Below are positions 9,742 through 61,553 of a stretch of 64,000 bases of DNA, in pieces. Source of the DNA: Salinimicrobium sp. TH3 (lineage in GTDB: Bacteria; Bacteroidota; Bacteroidia; Flavobacteriales; Flavobacteriaceae). The stretch covers positions 1-64,000 of the forward strand of contig NZ_JAPONB010000003.1 in the NCBI RefSeq assembly GCF_026676115.1. Direction: 5' to 3'. Both the position numbers and the translations under genes were made by a program. A model generated the notes under the pieces. It was not told where the DNA came from. It saw only the letters and a list, made by a program, of their open reading frames with translations, and ran no database searches. Each line of letters opens with the position of its first letter. The stretch's first letter is position 1.

Positions 9742-9749
9742 TATATTTG
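9742..9749 (+). promoter_or_regulatory. Promoter -7 box of rnpB
   Basis: TATATTTG is a perfect TAnnTTTG match. It ends 5 bp before the first base of the P1 helix of RNase P RNA, so it gives a useful in-window calibration of box-to-start distance. Confidence 0.75.
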
Positions 9750-9753
9750 CCGT

Positions 9754-10084
9754 AAGCAGACCGCCTTATCGCTGCCCCAAATTAATGTGGGGCGGAGGAA
9801 AGTCCGGACACCATAGGGCAGCATAATGGGTAACACCCATCATCCCGAATTATCGGGATAGGACCAGTGCAACAGAAAGGATGTACAGGTAATGCTGTAG
9901 TGAAATCAGGTAAACTCTATGCGGTGCAATGCCATGTATACCGGCTGTTAAGGATTGCCCGTCCGTTGCCGGAGGGTAGGCAGCTAAAGACTTTTGGTAA
10001 CAAAAGTTTCAGATAAATGATAAGGACTTCAATCCCGATAGCTATCGGGAGTTGAGGTACAGAATCCGGCTTACAGGTCTGCTT
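9754..10084 (+). ncRNA. rnpB: RNase P RNA (bacterial type A)
   Basis: The ends AAGCAGACC (9754-9762) and GGTCTGCTT (10076-10084) pair as helix P1 and are followed by a T run. Universal RNase P elements are present: GGAGGAAAGTCCGGAC, ATAGGGCA, ACAGAAA, and the 3' part AGAATCCGGCTTACAGGTC. The RNA provides catalytic 5' processing of tRNA precursors. Two peripheral hairpins (TCCCGAATTATCGGGA near 9843, TCCCGATAGCTATCGGGA near 10033) resemble short palindromes that are dispersed in Bacteroidota genomes. The 3' end overlaps the end of the convergent CDS by 14 bp. Confidence 0.95.
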
Positions 10085-53555: not shown

Positions 53556-53999
53556 TTAGGCCAGTAGCCTTTTCTGTTTTTGTTGTTTCATTACCTTACT
53601 TATGATTTCAAAAATTTCCTTTTTAAGTCGTTTGTACTGTCTGGAAAAGTGAGTGACATCATTAAGGATTTCCTTATGTTCTTTGCGATATACACGGCCC
53701 TCTTTTGGTTCGTCCACGTCGTCAAGCAAGTTTCGAAGCCGGTTAATATGTTCGGAAACCCTTTTTTCCAGAACTTTTAGATCTTTAACCGAAAGATCTA
53801 ACTGGTTTATAAGTTCCTTTACCCGTGTAAAAAGTTGGGATTCAATTATGGGTAAAGTATATTCTTTAAGCATATCTTCAAAAAAGCGATGTTCGTCCTT
53901 AATGAAGCTGAGTTCAGATTTCCACTGTAAGGAGGAGAAATGCATTTCGTCGGGTGTTTTCCACTCGATGTACCTGTAGTTATGGGCTTTATTCTTCAT
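53556..53999 (-). CDS. Coiled-coil protein of unknown function (paralogue A)
   Basis: This 147-residue, charged, largely helical protein has no signal or membrane segment. It shares a layout with the 54020-54451 product: a Trp-containing start (QWKSELSFIKDEHRFFEDML), an EHINRLRNLLDD-type helix, a Y-x2-EH-x2-L segment (YRKEHKEIL) and a KKEIFEIISKVM end. I recognise no named family. It lies 20 bp downstream of the second gene in an operon with a TGACA-N2-TGTCA operator-like site, so a stress role is inferred. Confidence 0.7.
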   Translation of the reverse strand: MKNKAHNYRYIEWKTPDEMHFSSLQWKSELSFIKDEHRFFEDMLKEYTLPIIESQLFTRVKELINQLDLSVKDLKVLEKRVSEHINRLRNLLDDVDEPKEGRVYRKEHKEILNDVTHFSRQYKRLKKEIFEIISKVMKQQKQKRLLA

Positions 54000-54019
54000 G
54001 GCAAAAAAAATTAGACTTG

Positions 54020-54451
54020 TTAATGCTCCTTGCTGGTTCGTCGTAACAGGCGCCCGGTATAGGAAAAAATTTCCATTTTGAATTCTCTGAATTTTTGGGC
54101 AAAATCCAGGATCCTTTGTTCGAGTTTTAAATGTTCATCGTGGTAAAAGACTTCACAGCTTATATCCTCACATTCCAGTATTCCTTCAATGTCATACCGG
54201 TGGTTATGGACTTCCCTGGTAAGCTCCAGGATCTCCTGTTTAAAATTCTGCAGGGCATCATAGAAAAGCTGAAGCCGCTCATATAGGTTTAGTATATTCT
54301 TTTGAAAGATATCTGCACCCAGGTACAGGTTTAAGAAGTTGATTTCTTCATTGAAGTAGGCTAATCTTTCTTTCCACCTGCTGTTTTCTTTTAACAGGCG
54401 ATCTATGTCCTTTTCATTTGCGGAAAAACTTCTGGATGTGTTCCGGCTCAT
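54020..54451 (-). CDS. Coiled-coil protein of unknown function (paralogue B)
   Basis: This 143-residue helical protein resembles paralogue A: WKERLAYFNEEINFLNLYL near residue 26, REVHNHRYDIEGIL, the YHDEHLKLEQRILDFAQKF segment and the KMEIFSYTGRLLRR end. Neither protein has recognisable catalytic motifs. It is the first gene of a two-gene operon. The palindrome 52 bp upstream links it to the neighbouring UspA/Hsp20 group. Confidence 0.7.
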   Translation of the reverse strand: MSRNTSRSFSANEKDIDRLLKENSRWKERLAYFNEEINFLNLYLGADIFQKNILNLYERLQLFYDALQNFKQEILELTREVHNHRYDIEGILECEDISCEVFYHDEHLKLEQRILDFAQKFREFKMEIFSYTGRLLRRTSKEH

Positions 54452-54471
54452 AATCTTCTGTATTTAAGTTA

Positions 54472-54514
54472 TTAAGGTAAGAATAAAAACTGTTCATCAA
54501 ACTGACAAATGTCA
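54472..54514 (-). promoter_or_regulatory. Crp/Fnr-type operator and -7 box of the coiled-coil operon
   Basis: TGACAAATGTCA (54503-54514) is a perfect 5+2+5 palindrome. Its centre is 33 bp from the centre of TACCTTAA (54479-54472, minus strand), an imperfect TAnnTTTG box. The same geometry occurs at 59765-59807 and 60443-60485. Confidence 0.65.
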
Positions 54515-54601
54515 CATAAGAAATTTTTTTTGGGGTGTAAAACAAGAAAAATACCGCATTTTAGAAAACTCATAAAATTTAACTAAAATATTTTTTGGCC
54601 G

Positions 54602-54634
54602 TTGTATTGAGTGTCAAAAAATGATATACATTTG
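54602..54634 (+). promoter_or_regulatory. Promoter of the small lipoprotein gene
   Basis: TTG (54602 or 54607) with a 22- or 17-bp spacer and TACATTTG (54627-54634) fit the -33/-7 model; the ATG at 54665 is 30 bp downstream. The box excludes the longer frame start at 54611. Confidence 0.7.
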
Positions 54635-54664
54635 ACCCCTCAAACAATTAATAATTCATTAAAA

Positions 54665-54892
54665 ATGAAAAAATCCTTTTTGACTTTTGCTGCTATCGCA
54701 TTAGTATTCTCATTTACTTCTTGTAAAGAAACAACTACTGAAACTACTGAAGACACTACAGTAGAAGTGATCGAAACTCCTGAGGCTCCTGTTGAGGTTG
54801 AGGCTGTTGAGACTGAAGAAGTTGTTGTTGATACAACAAGCACTGGCGGTACTGTAGTAGAAGACATTACAAATACTCCTTCTGTAGAATAA
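54665..54892 (+). CDS. Small acidic Thr/Val/Glu-rich lipoprotein
   Basis: The product has 75 residues. A lipoprotein signal peptide (MKKSFLTFAAIALVFSFTSC) ends with the lipidated Cys20. The mature part is low-complexity and rich in Thr, Glu and Val (ETTTETTEDTTVEV, EEVVVDTTSTGG). A strong promoter and a strong terminator enclose the gene. I recognise no domain; an abundant envelope lipoprotein is the likely reading. Confidence 0.75.
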   Translation: MKKSFLTFAAIALVFSFTSCKETTTETTEDTTVEVIETPEAPVEVEAVETEEVVVDTTSTGGTVVEDITNTPSVE

Positions 54893-54936
54893 TTTCAATT
54901 CTTAAGAAATCCGGGCATTTAAAAATGTCCAAACAA

Positions 54937-54967
54937 GAATCCGTGGTGAGAGCCACGGATTTTTTTT
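54937..54967 (+). terminator. Terminator after the small lipoprotein gene
   Basis: GAATCCGTGG, TGAGAG loop, CCACGGATTTTTTTT. It may also serve the convergent beta-CASP gene. Confidence 0.9.
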
Positions 54968-54969
54968 GT

Positions 54970-56343
54970 TTATACTTCTACCGTTATGGTATCTCCCAGG
55001 TGTGGAATCTCGGCATGCCAGCCGTAACGGTCTTTAATTTTAACCCTAAGAACATCTGAAGCTTTTTTCTCGCCGTGGATAAGGAAAATCCGATTCGGGT
55101 TATTGTCCAGGTCAATGAGCCAATCCAGTAATTCATGTTGATCTGCATGGGCAGAAAGGCTGTTAATGTTCTTTACTGCGGCTTTTACCTCATAGTAATT
55201 TCCAAAGATCTTTACATCGGCCACGCCTTCCTGAAGTTGTCTTCCTCTTGTTCCTTCGGCCTGGAAACCGACCAAAAGAATGGTGGTATTGGGGTCTTTA
55301 AGATGAAATCTCAAATAAGTTAAGATCCTGCCTCCAGTGACCATCCCGCTACCCGCTATGACAACCTTGGGTTGAGGATCGTCAATTACTTTCCAGGTGT
55401 CTTTATATTGAGTAATGATCCTGAAGAATCTTTTCATCTTTTTAAATTCTTCAGTATTTAATTTGTGCCAGGACATAAAACTGCTAAAGACTTTAAGCAC
55501 CTCGTTGCCCATGGGACTGTCAATATAAACGGGAATGGTTAGGTCCTTATTCTTTTGATAAAGTAGATAGATCCTGTACATCAATGTTTGGAGACGCTCT
55601 ACTGCAAAACTGGGGATAATTAATGTTCCATTGTTTTCAATGGTATTTGTGATGCAGGAATCAAGGATCTCATCAACGTCTTCCTCGGGATGTATCCTAT
55701 CCCCGTATGTGCTCTCCATAAAAAGGAAATCTGCATGCCCCGGTTTGCGAGGGGCTTCCAGAAGAGTGTCTGACTTTCGGCCGATATCTCCTGAGAAGAC
55801 GAAGATCTTACCGTTAATATCTAATTCAATAAAGGTTGCTCCCAGGATGTGCCCGTTCCTAAGAAAGCGAAATTTGACCTTTTCTGAGGCCTCCATCCAT
55901 TCATCTGTCTTAACAGATTTGAATAATTTAACAGTTTCTTCAACATCTTCTTCGTTATAAAGTGGCAATGCCGGCTCATGGATTGAATAATGTTCTTCAT
56001 TAGCCCTCTTAGCATCCTCCTGCTGAATTTTAGCGCTGTCTGTGAGGATAATTTCGGCTATAGCCAGCGTGGGAGAGGTTCCCAGAATTTCGCGGGTAAA
56101 GCCGCCTTTAACTAATTTTGGCAGGTAACCTGTGTGATCCAGGTGTCCATGAGTGAGAAGTACAAGGTCAATATTTTTCGGTGGAAAGGGAAAAGGTTTC
56201 CAGTTGAGTTCTCTTAATTCCTTGAGTCCCTGAAATAATCCGCAATCAATGAGAATATTCATCCAGGGGGTCTCAAGCAGGAACTTTGACCCTGTGACGG
56301 TACCTGCGGCACCCAGAAAACGAATATTTACTTTTTCAGGCAT
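54970..56343 (-). CDS. MBL-fold beta-CASP ribonuclease-like protein
   Basis: With ATG at 56343 the protein has 457 residues. The metallo-beta-lactamase site is complete (LLTHGHLDHTGYLP near residue 58, and RNGHILGATF), and the beta-CASP motifs follow (PSFAVERLQTLMY, AGSGMVTGGRI, HADQHELLDWL, LIHGE). It resembles the YSH1/CPSF73-like bacterial RNA nucleases. It overlaps the upstream ATP-cone gene by 8 bp and is last in an operon with three UspA genes, which suggests RNA turnover under stress. Confidence 0.9.
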   Translation of the reverse strand: MPEKVNIRFLGAAGTVTGSKFLLETPWMNILIDCGLFQGLKELRELNWKPFPFPPKNIDLVLLTHGHLDHTGYLPKLVKGGFTREILGTSPTLAIAEIILTDSAKIQQEDAKRANEEHYSIHEPALPLYNEEDVEETVKLFKSVKTDEWMEASEKVKFRFLRNGHILGATFIELDINGKIFVFSGDIGRKSDTLLEAPRKPGHADFLFMESTYGDRIHPEEDVDEILDSCITNTIENNGTLIIPSFAVERLQTLMYRIYLLYQKNKDLTIPVYIDSPMGNEVLKVFSSFMSWHKLNTEEFKKMKRFFRIITQYKDTWKVIDDPQPKVVIAGSGMVTGGRILTYLRFHLKDPNTTILLVGFQAEGTRGRQLQEGVADVKIFGNYYEVKAAVKNINSLSAHADQHELLDWLIDLDNNPNRIFLIHGEKKASDVLRVKIKDRYGWHAEIPHLGDTITVEV

Positions 56344-57181
56344 TTGCTTTTTTACAGGGCACAACCAGTTCTTCCATTTCCCGAAGAATTCTTCTCTTTC
56401 TGTTTTCTTTTACCTCCAGCTGGTCGAGAAAAAAGTTGTCTTTTAATAATTGCCTACACAGCACTACATCTCTGCTTAAGAGAAATTGTTTTTCTCTGGC
56501 AGACAAAAGAGTGGAAACGGTAATGGGGTAAAGTCCTAATTTGTCTATTCTTTCTTTTAAAGCATTCCCTTTAGGATAATCCCAGCTTAAAAGGTGTAAA
56601 CCTACACATTTGCCATAGGTGATAGCATCCTGTGTAAACCTCGTATTTGTAACTACCCAACCCTCATGGCGAAAACCTTCATTTTTGTGCCTATTAAGGT
56701 GAAAGCTTTCCAGATCTATAAACCGGGAGTTGATATACAGAGGAACTTTTACGTCACATTTTTTTCCCTGTTCACTATGGAATTTACATTCCATGAACAT
56801 TTTGAGGTCCTTTTTCTGTGCTACTACATCTACTTCATGACTTACACAAGATCCCTGGAGAGTTTTTCCGACTTCTACTTTATAACCGCTATTCTCAAAA
56901 ATGGCAGCTACAAATTTTTCAAAAGGGAATCCTGTAGGTCCCAGTTCATAGATAGCTTTTTTAAGTTTAAAACGGGAGGCAGTGAGGCCGTCCTGCTTTC
57001 GAAGGAGATCAAAAGCCTGCTTGTATATTTCTTTCGTAGAAATATCGGGATGTAAGTGCCCGCGCAGGCTTTTAAGAATATCTTTGATAACGGGCTCATG
57101 TGCACCGGCTCTTCTTAGGGAAGATGCCACTTTTGACTCCGAAAACTCTGATCTTTCCCCCGAGGCGGTAATAACTTTCAT
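56336..57181 (-). CDS. ATP-cone domain plus restriction-endonuclease-like (PD-(D/E)XK) protein
   Basis: This 281-residue protein joins an N-terminal ATP-cone (about residues 1-88, VITASGERSEFSESKVASSLRRAG) to an Mrr-like nuclease core (about 90-205). The catalytic pattern is visible as HEVDVVAQ, then MECKFH (D, then E-x-K). A Tyr/Phe-rich start (PFEKFVAAIFENSGY) is typical of such folds. The C-terminal 75 residues are helical and basic. ATP-cones sense adenine nucleotides, so a nucleotide-gated nuclease is plausible but not shown. It sits between UspA and beta-CASP genes. Confidence 0.85.
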   Translation of the reverse strand: MKVITASGERSEFSESKVASSLRRAGAHEPVIKDILKSLRGHLHPDISTKEIYKQAFDLLRKQDGLTASRFKLKKAIYELGPTGFPFEKFVAAIFENSGYKVEVGKTLQGSCVSHEVDVVAQKKDLKMFMECKFHSEQGKKCDVKVPLYINSRFIDLESFHLNRHKNEGFRHEGWVVTNTRFTQDAITYGKCVGLHLLSWDYPKGNALKERIDKLGLYPITVSTLLSAREKQFLLSRDVVLCRQLLKDNFFLDQLEVKENRKRRILREMEELVVPCKKANA

Positions 57182-57191
57182 GACGTTTTCT

Positions 57192-58043
57192 TTAATCTGC
57201 CTTTGGAGGCTGGTGGAGTACCAAAACCGGTACTTTTGAATAGTGGGCTAAATTCTTGTATAATGGGTTTAGGAGCAGGTTTTCTAAAAAGGTATGTTTT
57301 TTATTTATAAAGGCGACTAATCCACTTCCCCGGCTTTCTAAAAAAGAATAGATACCCAGAGGTACACTAAGATATTCCAGGGAATGAAACGAGTGTTTTA
57401 CCTCCTCGAGTTTTTCACTAAGTAACTTCCTGTGATGATGTTGAGATTTGTTAAGGCCACCTTCTTCGGCTATGTGGAGAATTCTAATAGCGGCTTTAAA
57501 TTTTTCCGCCAGGGAAATAAGGAAATCCAGGTCGTCGGGAGTCAGTTCAGCTTTAAAGCTGTTGGCAAGAACAATTTCTTTTGGAGGTGCAAAAACCATG
57601 TTAGAAGGAACAGTCAAAACCGGACAATTTTCAATCTCCTCCATGATGTTTAATGTATTTGTCCCATAGATAACTTCCTTGGCCCCGGTATGGCCCTGGC
57701 TTCCTATAATGATCAACTCAATTTTTCTTTTTCGTAATTCTTTTGAAATGGCATCTGTAAGAAGTAAATTGTGTGCCGCTATTTCAAATGAATGGTCTTT
57801 TCCTGCATTGATTTTTAATTCTTCGACTACCTTATTAAGCTTAATATCTGCATCCTGACGGGTTTTTTCAAGTACAGCCTTTCCCGGCGTAGCAGATAAC
57901 TGGCTTTTTTCATGGTAATCGAAAACCTTATATGCATGCATTACAATAAAATCCACTTTTTCTTCCAGGTACATATCCAGGGCGTATCTTGCCGCATTAA
58001 AGGAATTGGCAGAAAAATCTGTAGGCAAAAGCACTTTTTTCAT
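57192..58043 (-). CDS. Universal stress protein family (double-domain), copy 1
   Basis: This 283-residue protein has the UspA start KVLLPTDFSANSFNAARYAL and the nucleotide-loop region IIGSQGHTGAKEVIYGTNT (G-x2-G-x9-G-S/T type) near 115-135. A second, degenerate Usp-like domain follows (about 150-280). It lies in a tandem set of three; the start overlaps the stop of copy 2 (TAATG). Confidence 0.9.
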   Translation of the reverse strand: MKKVLLPTDFSANSFNAARYALDMYLEEKVDFIVMHAYKVFDYHEKSQLSATPGKAVLEKTRQDADIKLNKVVEELKINAGKDHSFEIAAHNLLLTDAISKELRKRKIELIIIGSQGHTGAKEVIYGTNTLNIMEEIENCPVLTVPSNMVFAPPKEIVLANSFKAELTPDDLDFLISLAEKFKAAIRILHIAEEGGLNKSQHHHRKLLSEKLEEVKHSFHSLEYLSVPLGIYSFLESRGSGLVAFINKKHTFLENLLLNPLYKNLAHYSKVPVLVLHQPPKAD

Positions 58044-58888
58044 TATTTCCTTTTTTTAGATGGAATGACCAGGAATGGTACCTTAACATTAAAACCTATT
58101 TCATTGACAACAGGTGTAAATAAAAGATTCTCAAAAAAAGAATGCTTATTATTTATCATCACCAGCAGGTCAACGTCATTTTCTTCCTGAAAGTCATAAA
58201 TAGCCCTGGTGACACTTTTTTCGGATATGCTGTAAAAATGATGACCAATATCTTTAAATGCCCTTCCCAAAGCTTTTTTTCGACTGGTTTGGGTAGGGGT
58301 AAGGTTTACTCCAAAATAGACATGAAGAATATGCACCTTTGAGGAGTGACTCAATGCAATTTCCTTTAAAATATTCAGGAGCTTAGGGATCTCCACTTCA
58401 TAATCTGTGGGGAAAAGTATCTCTTTGGGAGCCTTGTAATCATAATGTGCCGGAATTGCCATTAATGGGCAGCGGGCCTTTTTTATTGCGTGCACCGTAT
58501 GGGTGCCAAAAAGAATTTCTTGAGCTCCAGTAGCTCCTTTCGTTCCCATTACGATAAGATCTATTTCTTTCTTTAAAACCAGCTCTTTAATCTCATCATT
58601 CAAAAGATTGAAGGAGGAAATCTTCTCAAAGTGATGTTTTTCGTTCTTAAAATTTCGCTTGATCCTTCTTAGCACCCTTTCCAGTCCTTCCATGGATTTG
58701 TTTCTGTAGATTTCAGTTAGGGTGGGTTGAGAAGCACTGTAGACCAGGTACTCGTTATCATAAAGCACCGGGGTATAGGTATTGAGCAAATAAAAAGTAC
58801 ACTCCTCCCCATTGAAAAGCTGAACGGCGTATTTCGCTGCATTATACGCATTTTCTGAAAAGTCGGTTGGCAACAGGATCTTTTTCAT
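58043..58888 (-). CDS. Universal stress protein family (double-domain), copy 2
   Basis: This 281-residue protein has the same layout: KILLPTDFSENAYNAAKYAV at the start, the ATP-loop VMGTKGATGAQEILFGTHT near 115-135 and a diverged second domain. The end is basic (VIPSKKRK). It follows copy 3 after 11 bp and is coupled to copy 1. Confidence 0.9.
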   Translation of the reverse strand: MKKILLPTDFSENAYNAAKYAVQLFNGEECTFYLLNTYTPVLYDNEYLVYSASQPTLTEIYRNKSMEGLERVLRRIKRNFKNEKHHFEKISSFNLLNDEIKELVLKKEIDLIVMGTKGATGAQEILFGTHTVHAIKKARCPLMAIPAHYDYKAPKEILFPTDYEVEIPKLLNILKEIALSHSSKVHILHVYFGVNLTPTQTSRKKALGRAFKDIGHHFYSISEKSVTRAIYDFQEENDVDLLVMINNKHSFFENLLFTPVVNEIGFNVKVPFLVIPSKKRK

Positions 58889-58899
58889 GGCCTAAGGAT

Positions 58900-59748
58900 T
58901 TATAAGCGATAAAAATTTTGGAGTACCAAAAAGGGGATTTTTGGGTGGAGCCCTATTTTATCGATTGTTGAGGTATATAAAATGTTTTCAAGATAGCTGT
59001 GGCGGGAATTGACCAGGATAAGCAGATCAATGTGGAGGTTGTCAATCATCTTTTCAATGGCTTGTGTCTTTTCCAATTCCTTTTCATGATGATCATGCAC
59101 CTTTACATCATAAAATTGCTGCAAAATGGCTTCTTTATTATCTCTCTGTCTCAATGTCTCCTCGGCAAAACGTGAAACATACAGCATGTGAATCTCTGAA
59201 CAGAAAGACCGTGCTATTCCACCCACTAATTTAAGTTCGCGACGTTGATAGGGCAGAAGGTAATTTGTAGGAAATAATATCCGGCTGGGATCTGAAAATT
59301 TGTAATTTTCGGGGATACTTAACACAGGACATTGCACATATTTAATGATTTGCAGGGTGTTGCTGCCAAAAGTTAATTTACGGTCATTGGTTGCCCCACG
59401 GGTCGAAGTAATGATAAGATCGGCATTTTCTTTTTCGGCAAGATCATTCACTTCATCTATTAAAAGCCCGAAAGCCGGCACGGGATGAAAGGAATGTTTG
59501 GGATTGGAATACAATTCTTTTATCCGGGAGATAGTGTTCTCCAGCTCCCGGCTACACTTTTCTTTTACGGTTGCTTTATATTCCTCCAGAAAATCCTGGG
59601 TAATTACTCCTTCAAAATTGTAAACTTCATCGGCATAAGCGTGCAGCACATAAAATTCGCTTCTCTCATATTTAAAGAGTTCTGCAGCATATCTTAATGC
59701 ATTAAATGCGTTTTCTGAAAAGTCTGTAGGAATAATTATCTTTCTCAT
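58900..59748 (-). CDS. Universal stress protein family (double-domain), copy 3 (first in operon)
   Basis: This 282-residue protein starts KIIIPTDFSENAFNALRYAA and has the nucleotide loop ITSTRGATNDRKLTFGSNT near 115-135. It is the first gene of the usp-usp-usp-ATPcone-betaCASP operon, whose genes are separated by 11 bp or less or overlap. The TGACA-N2-TGTCA palindrome upstream places it under the same control as hsp20 and the coiled-coil operon. Confidence 0.9.
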   Translation of the reverse strand: MRKIIIPTDFSENAFNALRYAAELFKYERSEFYVLHAYADEVYNFEGVITQDFLEEYKATVKEKCSRELENTISRIKELYSNPKHSFHPVPAFGLLIDEVNDLAEKENADLIITSTRGATNDRKLTFGSNTLQIIKYVQCPVLSIPENYKFSDPSRILFPTNYLLPYQRRELKLVGGIARSFCSEIHMLYVSRFAEETLRQRDNKEAILQQFYDVKVHDHHEKELEKTQAIEKMIDNLHIDLLILVNSRHSYLENILYTSTIDKIGLHPKIPFLVLQNFYRL

Positions 59749-59764
59749 TTCCTGGCGTTTTGAT

Positions 59765-59807
59765 TAAAGTTAGAGAAAGTTTCCTAAAAGAAACATGACA
59801 GGTGTCA
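59765..59807 (-). promoter_or_regulatory. Crp/Fnr-type operator and -7 box of the UspA operon
   Basis: TGACAGGTGTCA (59796-59807; arms extended to ATGACA/TGTCAT) is centred 33 bp from the centre of TAACTTTA (59772-59765, minus strand). The box differs from TAnnTTTG only in the last base. The ATG is 16 bp further on. Confidence 0.7.
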
Positions 59808-59818
59808 TAAAAAGAAAA

Positions 59819-59934
59819 AGAGACTGTCCTAGTGATAAGTTCTCGTCAAACCAAACCTTGTTCGGTGAGCAATTTGCTTCTTTTTAGGATGCAAATTATT
59901 ATAATGACGATTCTCTATCAGTACGGCAGTCTCT
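59819..59934. repeat. Inverted-repeat-bounded intergenic element
   Basis: AGAGACTG (59819-59826) and CAGTCTCT (59927-59934) bound a 116-bp segment in the gap between hsp20 and the UspA operon. The GACTGTC end resembles the ends of the composite hairpin repeats. No ORF inside. It may also act as an hsp20 terminator. Confidence 0.4.
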
Positions 59935-59942
59935 CCCCCAGG

Positions 59943-60410
59943 TTAGGAAACCTTAATGGTTTTTGGCTTTTTGGCTTCCGAACCTTCTCTTTTGTTCAAT
60001 TTAAGCTTGAGAACTCCATCTTCGTAACGGGCAGAAATATCTTTATCCTCATCTACAGATTCTGGAATGCTTACAGATCTTGAGAAGGAATTATAACTAA
60101 ACTCCCTGCTCACATAACCTTCTTTTTCTTCTTCTTTTTTTTCTTCTTTTTCGGCTGAAACAGTAAGAATACCGTTGTCAAGAGTGATCTTAAAATCATC
60201 TTTTTTAAGTCCGGGTGCGGCAAGCTCTACTTCAAATTCTTTTTCTTTTTCTTTTATGTTCATTGCCGGACTAAAATCCAAATCTCCGTTTGTTTTAAGG
60301 AAGTTCTTCATCATTCCGCTACGGTCAAAGAAATTTGAAAAGAAAGGATCGTTGATAAAGGCATTACTCAACATTGGAGTCCTGCGCTTTTTTGTGGTTA
60401 CTAATGACAT
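59943..60410 (-). CDS. hsp20: Small heat shock protein, Hsp20/alpha-crystallin family
   Basis: With ATG at 60410 (MSLVTTKKRR) the protein has 155 residues. The alpha-crystallin domain covers about 45-145, with ELAAPGLKKDDFKITLDNGILTV and the late YEDGVLKLKLNK motif (GVL box). It should hold unfolding proteins as an ATP-independent chaperone. The upstream ATG at 60458 has no family similarity and lies close to the predicted promoter. A Crp/Fnr-type palindrome lies upstream. Confidence 0.93.
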   Translation of the reverse strand: MSLVTTKKRRTPMLSNAFINDPFFSNFFDRSGMMKNFLKTNGDLDFSPAMNIKEKEKEFEVELAAPGLKKDDFKITLDNGILTVSAEKEEKKEEEKEGYVSREFSYNSFSRSVSIPESVDEDKDISARYEDGVLKLKLNKREGSEAKKPKTIKVS

Positions 60411-60442
60411 AACTTTAGGTTTTTTGTTAGTAATTTTTCTTT

Positions 60443-60485
60443 CTAATTTACAGAGCATTAGCTCTAAATAGAATGAGAAATGTCA
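60443..60485 (-). promoter_or_regulatory. Crp/Fnr-type operator and -7 box of hsp20
   Basis: TGAGAAATGTCA (60474-60485, one arm mismatch) is centred exactly 33 bp from TAAATTAG (60450-60443, minus strand), one mismatch from TAnnTTTG. This is the third site with the same geometry in 6 kb. Confidence 0.6.
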
Positions 60486-60515
60486 TGTTTAGTAAAAAAT
60501 TAAGTGCGAAAAATC

Positions 60516-61553
60516 CTAATGTATTTCTCTTAATTTTTCAAGCTGAAGGATCTTAATATTTCGTCCTATTATGTCAATCAAGCCATCCCTTTTTAGACAG
60601 GACAAACTTCTTATAAAGCTTTCTGTAGATATCCCGGCTACACTTGCCATGTCACTTCGGGAAACTTTGATTATTGGAGTGGCATCATTTTTTACTTTTT
60701 CAGCAAATTCCAGCAAAGTGCTGGCAGTCTTCTTAAGTACTGAACTATAAGCCATCTCCAGGAGATGTGTTTTTAGAACATCAAGATTGTGAGAAAGTAC
60801 TTCGGCAAACTCCAGGGTCAATTCGTGATTTTTCTTTAGTAACTGGATGAATTCTTCAAGCGAAATCCTATAAAGAATACTCCTTTCCAGGGCATGCGCA
60901 CTCTCGGGATACCTGGAGAATTTAAAACTGTAGAAGCCCAGAAAATCTCCTTTTTGAGGTATACTCGTTATAAGTTCTTTTCCATGTTCATCCAGCTTAA
61001 AGGTTTTTACCAGGCCGTGCTCAAGAAGTAATACGTTTGAAGCCATCCTGTTTTCCATATAGATTTCTTCATTTTTCTCTACCTGTATCTGTTCCCCGTA
61101 AGTTCGAATGTACTCCTTAAATTCTTCCAGATGAAATTGTGGCTTCTTTCTTCTTTCTTCTTCTTCCTCCCTTAGTATTTGTGTTCGTTTGGCTATGCGC
61201 CTTTCCAGGGCAAGAATAAGGTCTTCTTCATTAAAAGGTTTCGTGATGTAGTCATCTGCCCCAAGATTCATACCCCGCCGAACATCAGCTGGATCAGCTT
61301 TAGCAGAGAGGAAGATGAAAGGAATATTCCTGGTGTAACGGTTTTGCTGAAGAGCCTGATATACTTCATAACCATTAACATTAGGCATCATGATATCTGA
61401 AATTATGACATCGGGAAGTTCTTTAAATGCCTTTATTAATCCAGATTTTCCTTCGTGAGCAAGCATAACCCGGTAACCGGAAAGCTCCAACAATTCCTGA
61501 ATATTTTCAGCAAGCACAAGATCATCTTCTATAAGGAGAACCGAACTTTCCAT
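60516..61553 (-). CDS. Response regulator with Crp/Fnr-type DNA-binding output
   Basis: With ATG at 61553 the protein has 345 residues. Residues 5-120 form a receiver domain: LIEDD acidic pocket, phospho-accepting Asp in VIISDIMMP, and LSAKAD plus ITKPF (conserved Lys). A short charged coil (ILREEEEERRKK) leads to a cyclic-nucleotide-binding-like barrel (about 165-270), then a winged helix of HTH_Crp type (VSRSDMASVAGISTESFIRSL, about 293-313). No Fnr-type N-terminal Cys cluster is seen. No histidine kinase gene is adjacent. It most likely activates the nearby palindrome-bearing promoters. Confidence 0.92.
   Translation of the reverse strand: MESSVLLIEDDLVLAENIQELLELSGYRVMLAHEGKSGLIKAFKELPDVIISDIMMPNVNGYEVYQALQQNRYTRNIPFIFLSAKADPADVRRGMNLGADDYITKPFNEEDLILALERRIAKRTQILREEEEERRKKPQFHLEEFKEYIRTYGEQIQVEKNEEIYMENRMASNVLLLEHGLVKTFKLDEHGKELITSIPQKGDFLGFYSFKFSRYPESAHALERSILYRISLEEFIQLLKKNHELTLEFAEVLSHNLDVLKTHLLEMAYSSVLKKTASTLLEFAEKVKNDATPIIKVSRSDMASVAGISTESFIRSLSCLKRDGLIDIIGRNIKILQLEKLREIH

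Follow-up and report, generated by a model that had tools for sequence, protein, structure and literature searches.

Candidate class II Crp/Fnr-type sites beside a receiver-Crp/Fnr response regulator in Salinimicrobium

The 64,000-nucleotide window of Salinimicrobium sp. TH3 analyzed here (source genome, 3.69 Mb; all locus positions are those of this window) carries a gene for a response regulator, termed RRcrp1, beside hsp20, an operon of universal stress protein (usp) genes, and an operon for two putative coiled-coil proteins. The promoters of these three units share a palindrome of the form TGACA-N2-TGTCA. This arrangement raises the question of whether the palindromes are activator sites and, if so, which protein reads them and in response to what signal. 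On the sequence evidence we favor, with some reserve, the joint reading that they are class II sites of a Crp/Fnr-type regulator, most likely RRcrp1, that would control a low-oxygen regulon. The class II regulon itself appears well supported, with low oxygen a more probable signal for it than general stress.

Sites, boxes and predicted start positions

When the window was re-read, the three palindromes were found as initially annotated: TGACAAATGTCA at 54503-54514, TGACAGGTGTCA at 59796-59807, and TGAGAAATGTCA at 60474-60485. Read on the minus strand, TGACATTTGTCA precedes coilB, TGACACCTGTCA precedes usp1, and TGACATTTCTCA precedes hsp20. Downstream of these lie imperfect -7 boxes on the same strand, TACCTTAA for coilB (54472-54479), TAACTTTA for usp1 (59765-59772), and TAAATTAG for hsp20 (60443-60450). 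The distance of 33 base pairs (bp) that had been claimed between the centers of site and box is exact in all three promoters. TGACA-N2-TGTCA contains TGA-N6-TCA, which is the half-site spacing of the Crp/Fnr family.

Within the window, the number of palindromes is by itself only mildly unusual. With up to one mismatch allowed, 4 matches are found against 1.36 expected, and 3 of 100 shuffles of the window also reach 4. The spacing is the stronger signal. The window contains 38 TGA-N6-TCA sites, and a box lies at 33 bp from 4 of them, compared with no more than 2 at every other distance from 12 to 69.

The proposed position of the sites, about -41.5, is upheld independently by start-site mapping in Flavobacterium psychrophilum, which places the sigma-A box TAnnTTTG at -12 to -5 (PMC9723704). 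A box center at -8.5 and a spacing of 33 bp together give a site center of -41.5. With starts predicted in this way, the sites would be centered near the position that characterizes class II Crp/Fnr promoters. The initial annotation had instead calibrated the start on the rnpB promoter, with 8.5 bp from box center to start. A box does lie near the rnpB start (TATATTTG, 9742-9749), but the 5' edge of the Rfam match at 9753 yields a distance of 7.5 bp, and 8.5 bp would require a start at 9754.

Conservation and genome-wide distribution

Orthologues of RRcrp1, with 56-100% identity, are present in 10 of the 11 other Salinimicrobium genomes searched; in the remaining genome (G001, 74% complete), the paralogue alone was found and no RRcrp1 orthologue. 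The gene order RRcrp1-hsp20-usp1-3-ATP-cone-beta-CASP-lipoprotein-coilB-coilA is largely retained in the genus. A scan of orthologous hsp20, usp, and coil promoters, which had been proposed as a check, covered 29 promoters, window included, and detected the site in 26 of them together with a -7 box at 32-34 bp. The distance is 33 bp in 21 of these, 32 bp in 4, and 34 bp in 1. By gene, site and box occur in 8/8 hsp20, 9/11 usp1, and 9/10 coilB promoters, where a partial match to hsp20 in G005 was left uncounted, hsp20 was unmatched at the G004 and G008 loci, and coilB was unmatched at G004.

Seven rows per gene were compared for identity (7 of 8 hsp20, 7 of 11 usp1, and 7 of 10 coilB promoters, omitting L046, L047, and the site-less L051 and L053). 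Identity within the sites is 0.94, 0.77, and 0.94 for the three genes, versus 0.51-0.65 in flanks and spacer, although the six core letters are 1.00 identical because rows were selected for TGA-N6-TCA. The coilB box reaches an identity of just 0.64, since some rows have a spacing that differs by one base.

Across the TH3 genome, the excess of raw site counts over a backward control is modest: 28 versus 14 for TGAYANNTRTCA, 6 versus 2 for the exact palindrome, and 84 versus 77 with one mismatch. The location of the sites is more telling. A TA..TT box lies at 33 bp to one side of 14 of the 18 intergenic TGAYANNTRTCA sites and of 0 of the 10 inside open reading frames (ORFs), where sites were sorted by hand and one in a presumably spurious ORF of 92 amino acids (aa) was counted as intergenic. 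At other box distances the intergenic sites give a mean of 0.27 and a maximum of 2. The window shuffles mentioned above leave some room for chance palindromes, but conservation and spacing, both in the genus promoters and over the whole genome, make this a negligible explanation, and the split of 14/18 against 0/10 led us to reject it. In the complete genome G009, 14 sites compare with 4 in the control; those with a box at 33 bp include the sites before coilB, hsp20, a usp gene, a TonB-like gene, and a gene for an outer-membrane protein, and further sites lie within genes or have no box.

The initial annotation had proposed a stress regulon of three units. Conserved Crp/Fnr-type sites at the class II position in several units beside the regulator bear out part of this proposal, but the set is wider and includes anaerobic genes elsewhere in the genome. 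The genes behind sites in TH3 include nrfH with nrfA, and those for an acetate-CoA-ligase-type enzyme, a zinc alcohol dehydrogenase, and a ferric-reductase-like protein. Others encode a Crp/Fnr regulator, a Usp, a phosphoribosyltransferase, an outer-membrane barrel, and some membrane proteins or proteins of no assigned type. A pfl gene has a site with an imperfect box, GAAATTTG, at 33 bp. Matches to hemN, ccoNO, and NrfH exceed NCBIfam cut-offs, whereas those to nrfA, pfl, and acetate-CoA ligase, all truncated at the locus edge, fall below them. The presence of anaerobic genes such as nrfHA behind the sites suggests that oxygen or redox state is the likely signal.

Exact sites outnumber the control by 34:10 in 12 genomes of the genus. 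The palindrome is clearly enriched only there, and the near-control counts in more distant genomes, given below, led us to reject site excess as a stand-alone proof. Where a genome has no RRcrp orthologue, 9 of the 35 exact sites in the loci examined have TA..TT at 33 bp, against a mean of 0.93 and a maximum of 5 at other distances, which is a weaker peak than in the TH3 genome.

Candidate readers and signals

RRcrp1 (60516-61553, minus strand) joins a receiver (Pfam Response_reg, 4e-27) to a cNMP-binding fold (cNMP_binding, 5.2e-13) and a Crp-type helix-turn-helix (HTH) domain (HTH_Crp_2, 1.8e-13). The latter two, which together mark the Crp/Fnr superfamily, pass the curated Pfam cut-offs, and the adjacent receiver-Crp/Fnr regulator reported earlier is indeed present. 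Receiver residues D10, D11, D53, S83, and K105 are invariant across 12 aligned RRcrp proteins; we take these to be the phosphoacceptor aspartate, the acidic pair, the Ser/Thr, and the lysine. In the alignment, the recognition helix retains the glutamate and arginine of the family. RRcrp1 has no N-terminal 4Fe-4S cysteines like those of FNR proper, and its single cysteine is in the HTH region. We consider RRcrp1 the likely reader of the sites.

Related loci are informative about both reader and signal. Among 80 RRcrp-like loci, 13 with whole-protein matches were used, of which L078 and L080 are shorter than 4 kb and can show few neighbors. L077 is from Salinimicrobium nanhaiense, so that neither these 13 loci nor the 17 used for spacing are wholly foreign to the genus. 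A histidine-kinase ORF lies immediately upstream of RRcrp in 12 of the 13, and 7 of the 13 contain hemN, ccoN, ccoI, or D-2-hydroxyacid dehydrogenase (D-ldh) kinds of gene, where a heavy-metal P-type ATPase is what we label ccoI, and D-ldh is likewise our label for a D-2-hydroxyacid dehydrogenase. In the 17 loci, all but one from outside the genus, TGA-N6-TCA before a gene is accompanied by a box at 33 bp 32 times, versus at most 8 times at any other distance; a secondary peak at 55 bp is due in part to tandem sites 22 bp apart. In the RRcrp loci of G021, G023, and Aquimarina, usp genes are preceded by several sites at 33 bp, and both exact sites of G021 are within its RRcrp locus. The Aquimarina locus (L076) has the order kinase, RRcrp, usp, hemN, and also contains a ccoNO gene (ccoN) with a site at 33 bp. 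The distant loci L078, L080-L083, and L092 yielded no site whose box lies at 33 bp.

The kinase adjoining the paralogue RRcrp2 has a PAS domain whose best matches are the heme PAS domains of DosP and FixL. Among 16 aligned kinase PAS domains, a histidine is present in 16 and an arginine in 10, which we take to be the heme ligand and the FixL regulatory residue, respectively; the histidine is also present in a multi-sensor-kinase match from the PDB.

Other proteins of the genus could compete for the sites. The single contig of G009 encodes four HTH_Crp_2 proteins (E up to 0.001), namely RRcrp1, RRcrp2, and proteins of 211 and 197 aa. The helix of the 211-aa protein is without the family glutamate, and that of the 197-aa protein reads LRVETVIRATK (in G000, G002, and G009). 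On helix compatibility in this survey, RRcrp2 and the 197-aa protein are therefore rivals of RRcrp1. Half-sites near these proteins differ from those of the RRcrp1 cluster. The usp promoter adjacent to RRcrp2 has TGAT-N4-ATCA in 8 of 8 cases. The hemN (10/10) and cco (10/10) promoters of the genus carry TGA-N6-TCA, all at 33 bp, and none of their 40 half-sites has A at position 5 (the cco promoter of G003 has two matches, of which the first was scored, TGAGCCTAATCA rather than TGACCGAAATCA). Overall, of the 52 half-sites in the RRcrp1 cluster, 44 have A at position 5, versus 1 of 56 in promoters near the rivals. The 11 genus genomes that bear RRcrp1 contain 32 exact sites, of which 11 fall within 10 kb of RRcrp1 and 1 within 10 kb of RRcrp2.

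A number of observations weigh against RRcrp1 as the reader, or against the regulon as a whole. The half-site contrast is suggestive, but its counts are not independent because six promoters repeat over related genomes. At least two further proteins of the genus have a compatible recognition helix, and the 197-aa protein could read TGA sites. In G016 and G017, where the match to RRcrp is partial only, the same palindrome stands 33 bp from a box before hemN; the palindrome is therefore not diagnostic of RRcrp1. Beyond the genus, exact sites number 30 against 23 in the control for 13 genomes of the family and 11 against 11 for 8 genomes of the order. The usp1 site is missing in G011, and in G008 both usp1 and coilB are without a site although RRcrp1 is present with an unchanged helix. 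G005 has zero exact sites genome-wide. The 200 bp upstream of RRcrp1 contain TGA-N6-TCA with a box at 33 bp in 0 of 11 genomes (G002 and G008 have TGA-N6-TCA there, but without the box), and no kinase was recognized by eye among the ORFs neighboring RRcrp1.

The absence of G008 sites cannot be ascribed to an altered RRcrp1 recognition helix, because the helix is identical. At this locus (L053), AACATGTT palindromes occur near usp1 (3197) and coilB (5516) with no TGA-N6-TCA, and by hand count they are 29 and 26 bp from the box, not 33.

Several of these points would be explained if another Crp/Fnr protein, for instance the 197-aa protein near cco or the Crp218 protein of the TH3 genome, read the sites and RRcrp1 were a bystander or co-reader. 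The hemN palindromes of G016 and G017 and the two absent sites of G008 fit such a reader, as do the family-compatible helix of the 197-aa protein, with HTH matches of like length in the other genus genomes searched, and the site that precedes the Crp218 gene itself. We nevertheless regard it as unlikely. Position 5 is never A in the hemN and cco half-sites of the genus, though cco is only 9-12 kb from the 197-aa-type match; a close relative of Crp218 occurs in G000 and G007 alone of the 12 genus genomes searched; and exact sites cluster at RRcrp1. A different possibility keeps RRcrp1 as reader, and so does not conflict with what our interpretation says about the sites and their reader, but substitutes nitric oxide, redox, or another stress for oxygen. 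The locus order kinase-RRcrp2-usp-RIC-NorB and the presence of the FixL-type arginine in just 10 of 16 kinases could be taken in this sense, whereas nrfHA, the pfl fragment, and adh behind TH3 sites, and the hemN, ccoN, ccoI, or D-2-hydroxyacid dehydrogenase kinds of gene in 7 of the 13 loci, point to oxygen and place such a signal on the unlikely side.

Finally, RRcrp1 might act as a repressor here, or the palindromes might be non-regulatory. A dimer at -41.5 might in principle obstruct polymerase. However, a single fixed spacing over many unrelated promoters with imperfect boxes would fit class II activation, and one constant spacing would be unexpected for repressor sites, making this alternative very improbable.

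The mechanism that we infer for a low-oxygen regulon of RRcrp1, covering RRcrp1 binding, activation, operon extent, the kinase, and the oxygen signal, would be as follows. A FixL-like heme-PAS kinase, either the one beside RRcrp2 or a related one, probably phosphorylates the RRcrp1 receiver. The phosphorylated dimer would then bind just upstream of the imperfect -7 boxes and contact RNA polymerase in the class II manner from about -41.5. Falling oxygen would thereby turn on hsp20, the usp1-3/ATP-cone/beta-CASP operon, and coilB-coilA, and the distant genes nrfHA, pfl, adh, and another usp may be coactivated.

Genes of the locus and related observations

All genes of the locus discussed here are on the minus strand. 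The hsp20 gene (59943-60410) encodes a small heat-shock protein (Pfam HSP20, 7.8e-24). The usp operon begins with usp1 (58900-59748; Pfam Usp, 2.9e-24), usp2 (58043-58888; 3.3e-26), and usp3 (57192-58043; 6.4e-20). It pairs an ATP-cone-like and Mrr_cat nuclease-like protein (56336-57181; Mrr_cat, 1.8e-6; ATP-cone, E 0.00024, under the curated cut-off) with an adjoining beta-CASP metallo-beta-lactamase RNase-like protein (54970-56343; Beta-Casp, 2.2e-29; RMMBL, 1.3e-17). coilB (54020-54451, 143 aa) and coilA (53556-53999, 147 aa) have no Pfam match and have relatives within the genus; that they form coiled coils is the label of the initial annotation.

Some additional sites were noted. TGAGAGATATCA is found 33 bp from a box before a conserved gene whose product of 259-260 aa may be an ABC permease (L046:4577, L047:4310, L048:11686, L049:15010, L050:14820, and L051:14743). 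The RIC (ScdA) gene beside RRcrp2 (L056:7930-8649, L057, and L058) has a TGA-N6-TCA variant upstream in 3 of 3 loci, either TGAC....CTCA or TGACTCATCTCA. G012 and G021 have a third RRcrp paralogue, around which 6 sites at 33 bp occur, 3 of them TGACC-N2-GGTCA; the sites (L232:1812, 5550, and 11079; L233:8572, 12808, and 14450) precede hsp20, the kinase of this paralogue, and a 109-aa gene. At L084:11048/11070, L086:11045/11067, and L085:17426/17448, TGA-N6-TCA occurs in tandem, the two copies being 22 bp apart and the boxes lying at 33 and 55 bp; the tandem sites of L084 and L086 are just downstream of RRcrp, in front of genes resembling hemN and D-2-hydroxyacid dehydrogenase genes. Another conserved protein, of 133-134 aa and with no Pfam match (L062:5992-6393, L076:8250-8654) is encoded divergently to the kinase-RRcrp pair, with a 33-bp site in both loci.

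Comparison with known systems

We found little literature on oxygen control in Flavobacteriia, for which a concrete site, spacing, and regulator family can now be proposed. Our literature search, from which subscription papers were mostly absent, found no Crp/Fnr response regulator from Bacteroidota that controls a usp regulon, and the passages of PMC8510549 that were examined contain nothing on an RRcrp-type regulator. The proposal would place large usp clusters, which have no known role, in a probable low-oxygen circuit. Paralogues with differing half-sites and one spacing would also offer a clean system for studying how Crp/Fnr specificity evolves. Generalized to Bacteroidota, the scheme is a tentative conjecture that we regard as somewhat doubtful: a FixL-like kinase and a one-piece receiver-FixK-like regulator might form a low-oxygen switch whose paralogues split TGA-N6-TCA at -41.5 into separate codes (TGACA-N2-TGTCA for RRcrp1, TGAT-N4-ATCA for RRcrp2, and TGACC-N2-GGTCA for RRcrp3), with Salinimicrobium RRcrp1 running a DosR-like usp/Hsp20 dormancy regulon together with nitrite and pyruvate anaerobic genes.

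Among known systems, FixLJ-FixK and FnrN come closest. As in the FixL-FixJ-FixK cascade of rhizobia, a kinase with a FixL-like PAS domain is found with a Crp/Fnr-type output, cbb3 oxidase and hemN genes are nearby in several RRcrp loci, and the sites have a TGA-N6-TCA core. In contrast with that cascade, RRcrp joins receiver and Crp/Fnr output, and no separate FixJ-like regulator was recognized between kinase and RRcrp. Moreover, the outer T and A of the FixK site TTGA-N6-TCAA are not conserved here, where the base preceding TGA varies, and the promoter has a Bacteroidota -7 box.

In Rhizobium leguminosarum, according to one report, an hsp20-type gene is induced microaerobically in dependence on FnrN through a TTGA-N6-TCAA anaerobox (PMC11784457). 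The likeness lies in an hsp20-type gene with a TGA-N6-TCA-type site; FnrN, as described there, is a CRP/FNR-superfamily regulator that acts via the anaerobox, and RRcrp1 differs from it by carrying a receiver. Single-domain Fnr-like proteins of other Flavobacteriaceae (L301, L302, L304, L305, and L309) also have a family-compatible helix, and the hemN palindrome of G016 and G017 at 33 bp is alike, but these proteins have an N-terminal CxxC and no fused receiver. No relative so close to them was found in the genus beyond the Crp218 types of G000 and G007.

In the DosRST system of mycobacteria, too, usp genes and an Hsp20 are under the control of heme-sensing kinases together with a response regulator. 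The output domain of DosR is of the NarL/LuxR type, and its DNA site is unrelated to the RRcrp1 palindrome. The resemblance would be convergent, and RRcrp1 may govern a counterpart of the mycobacterial DosR dormancy program built on a different DNA-binding domain. What sets the RRcrp1 scheme apart from FixLJ-FixK and FnrN is a one-piece receiver-Crp/Fnr protein together with a Bacteroidota promoter.

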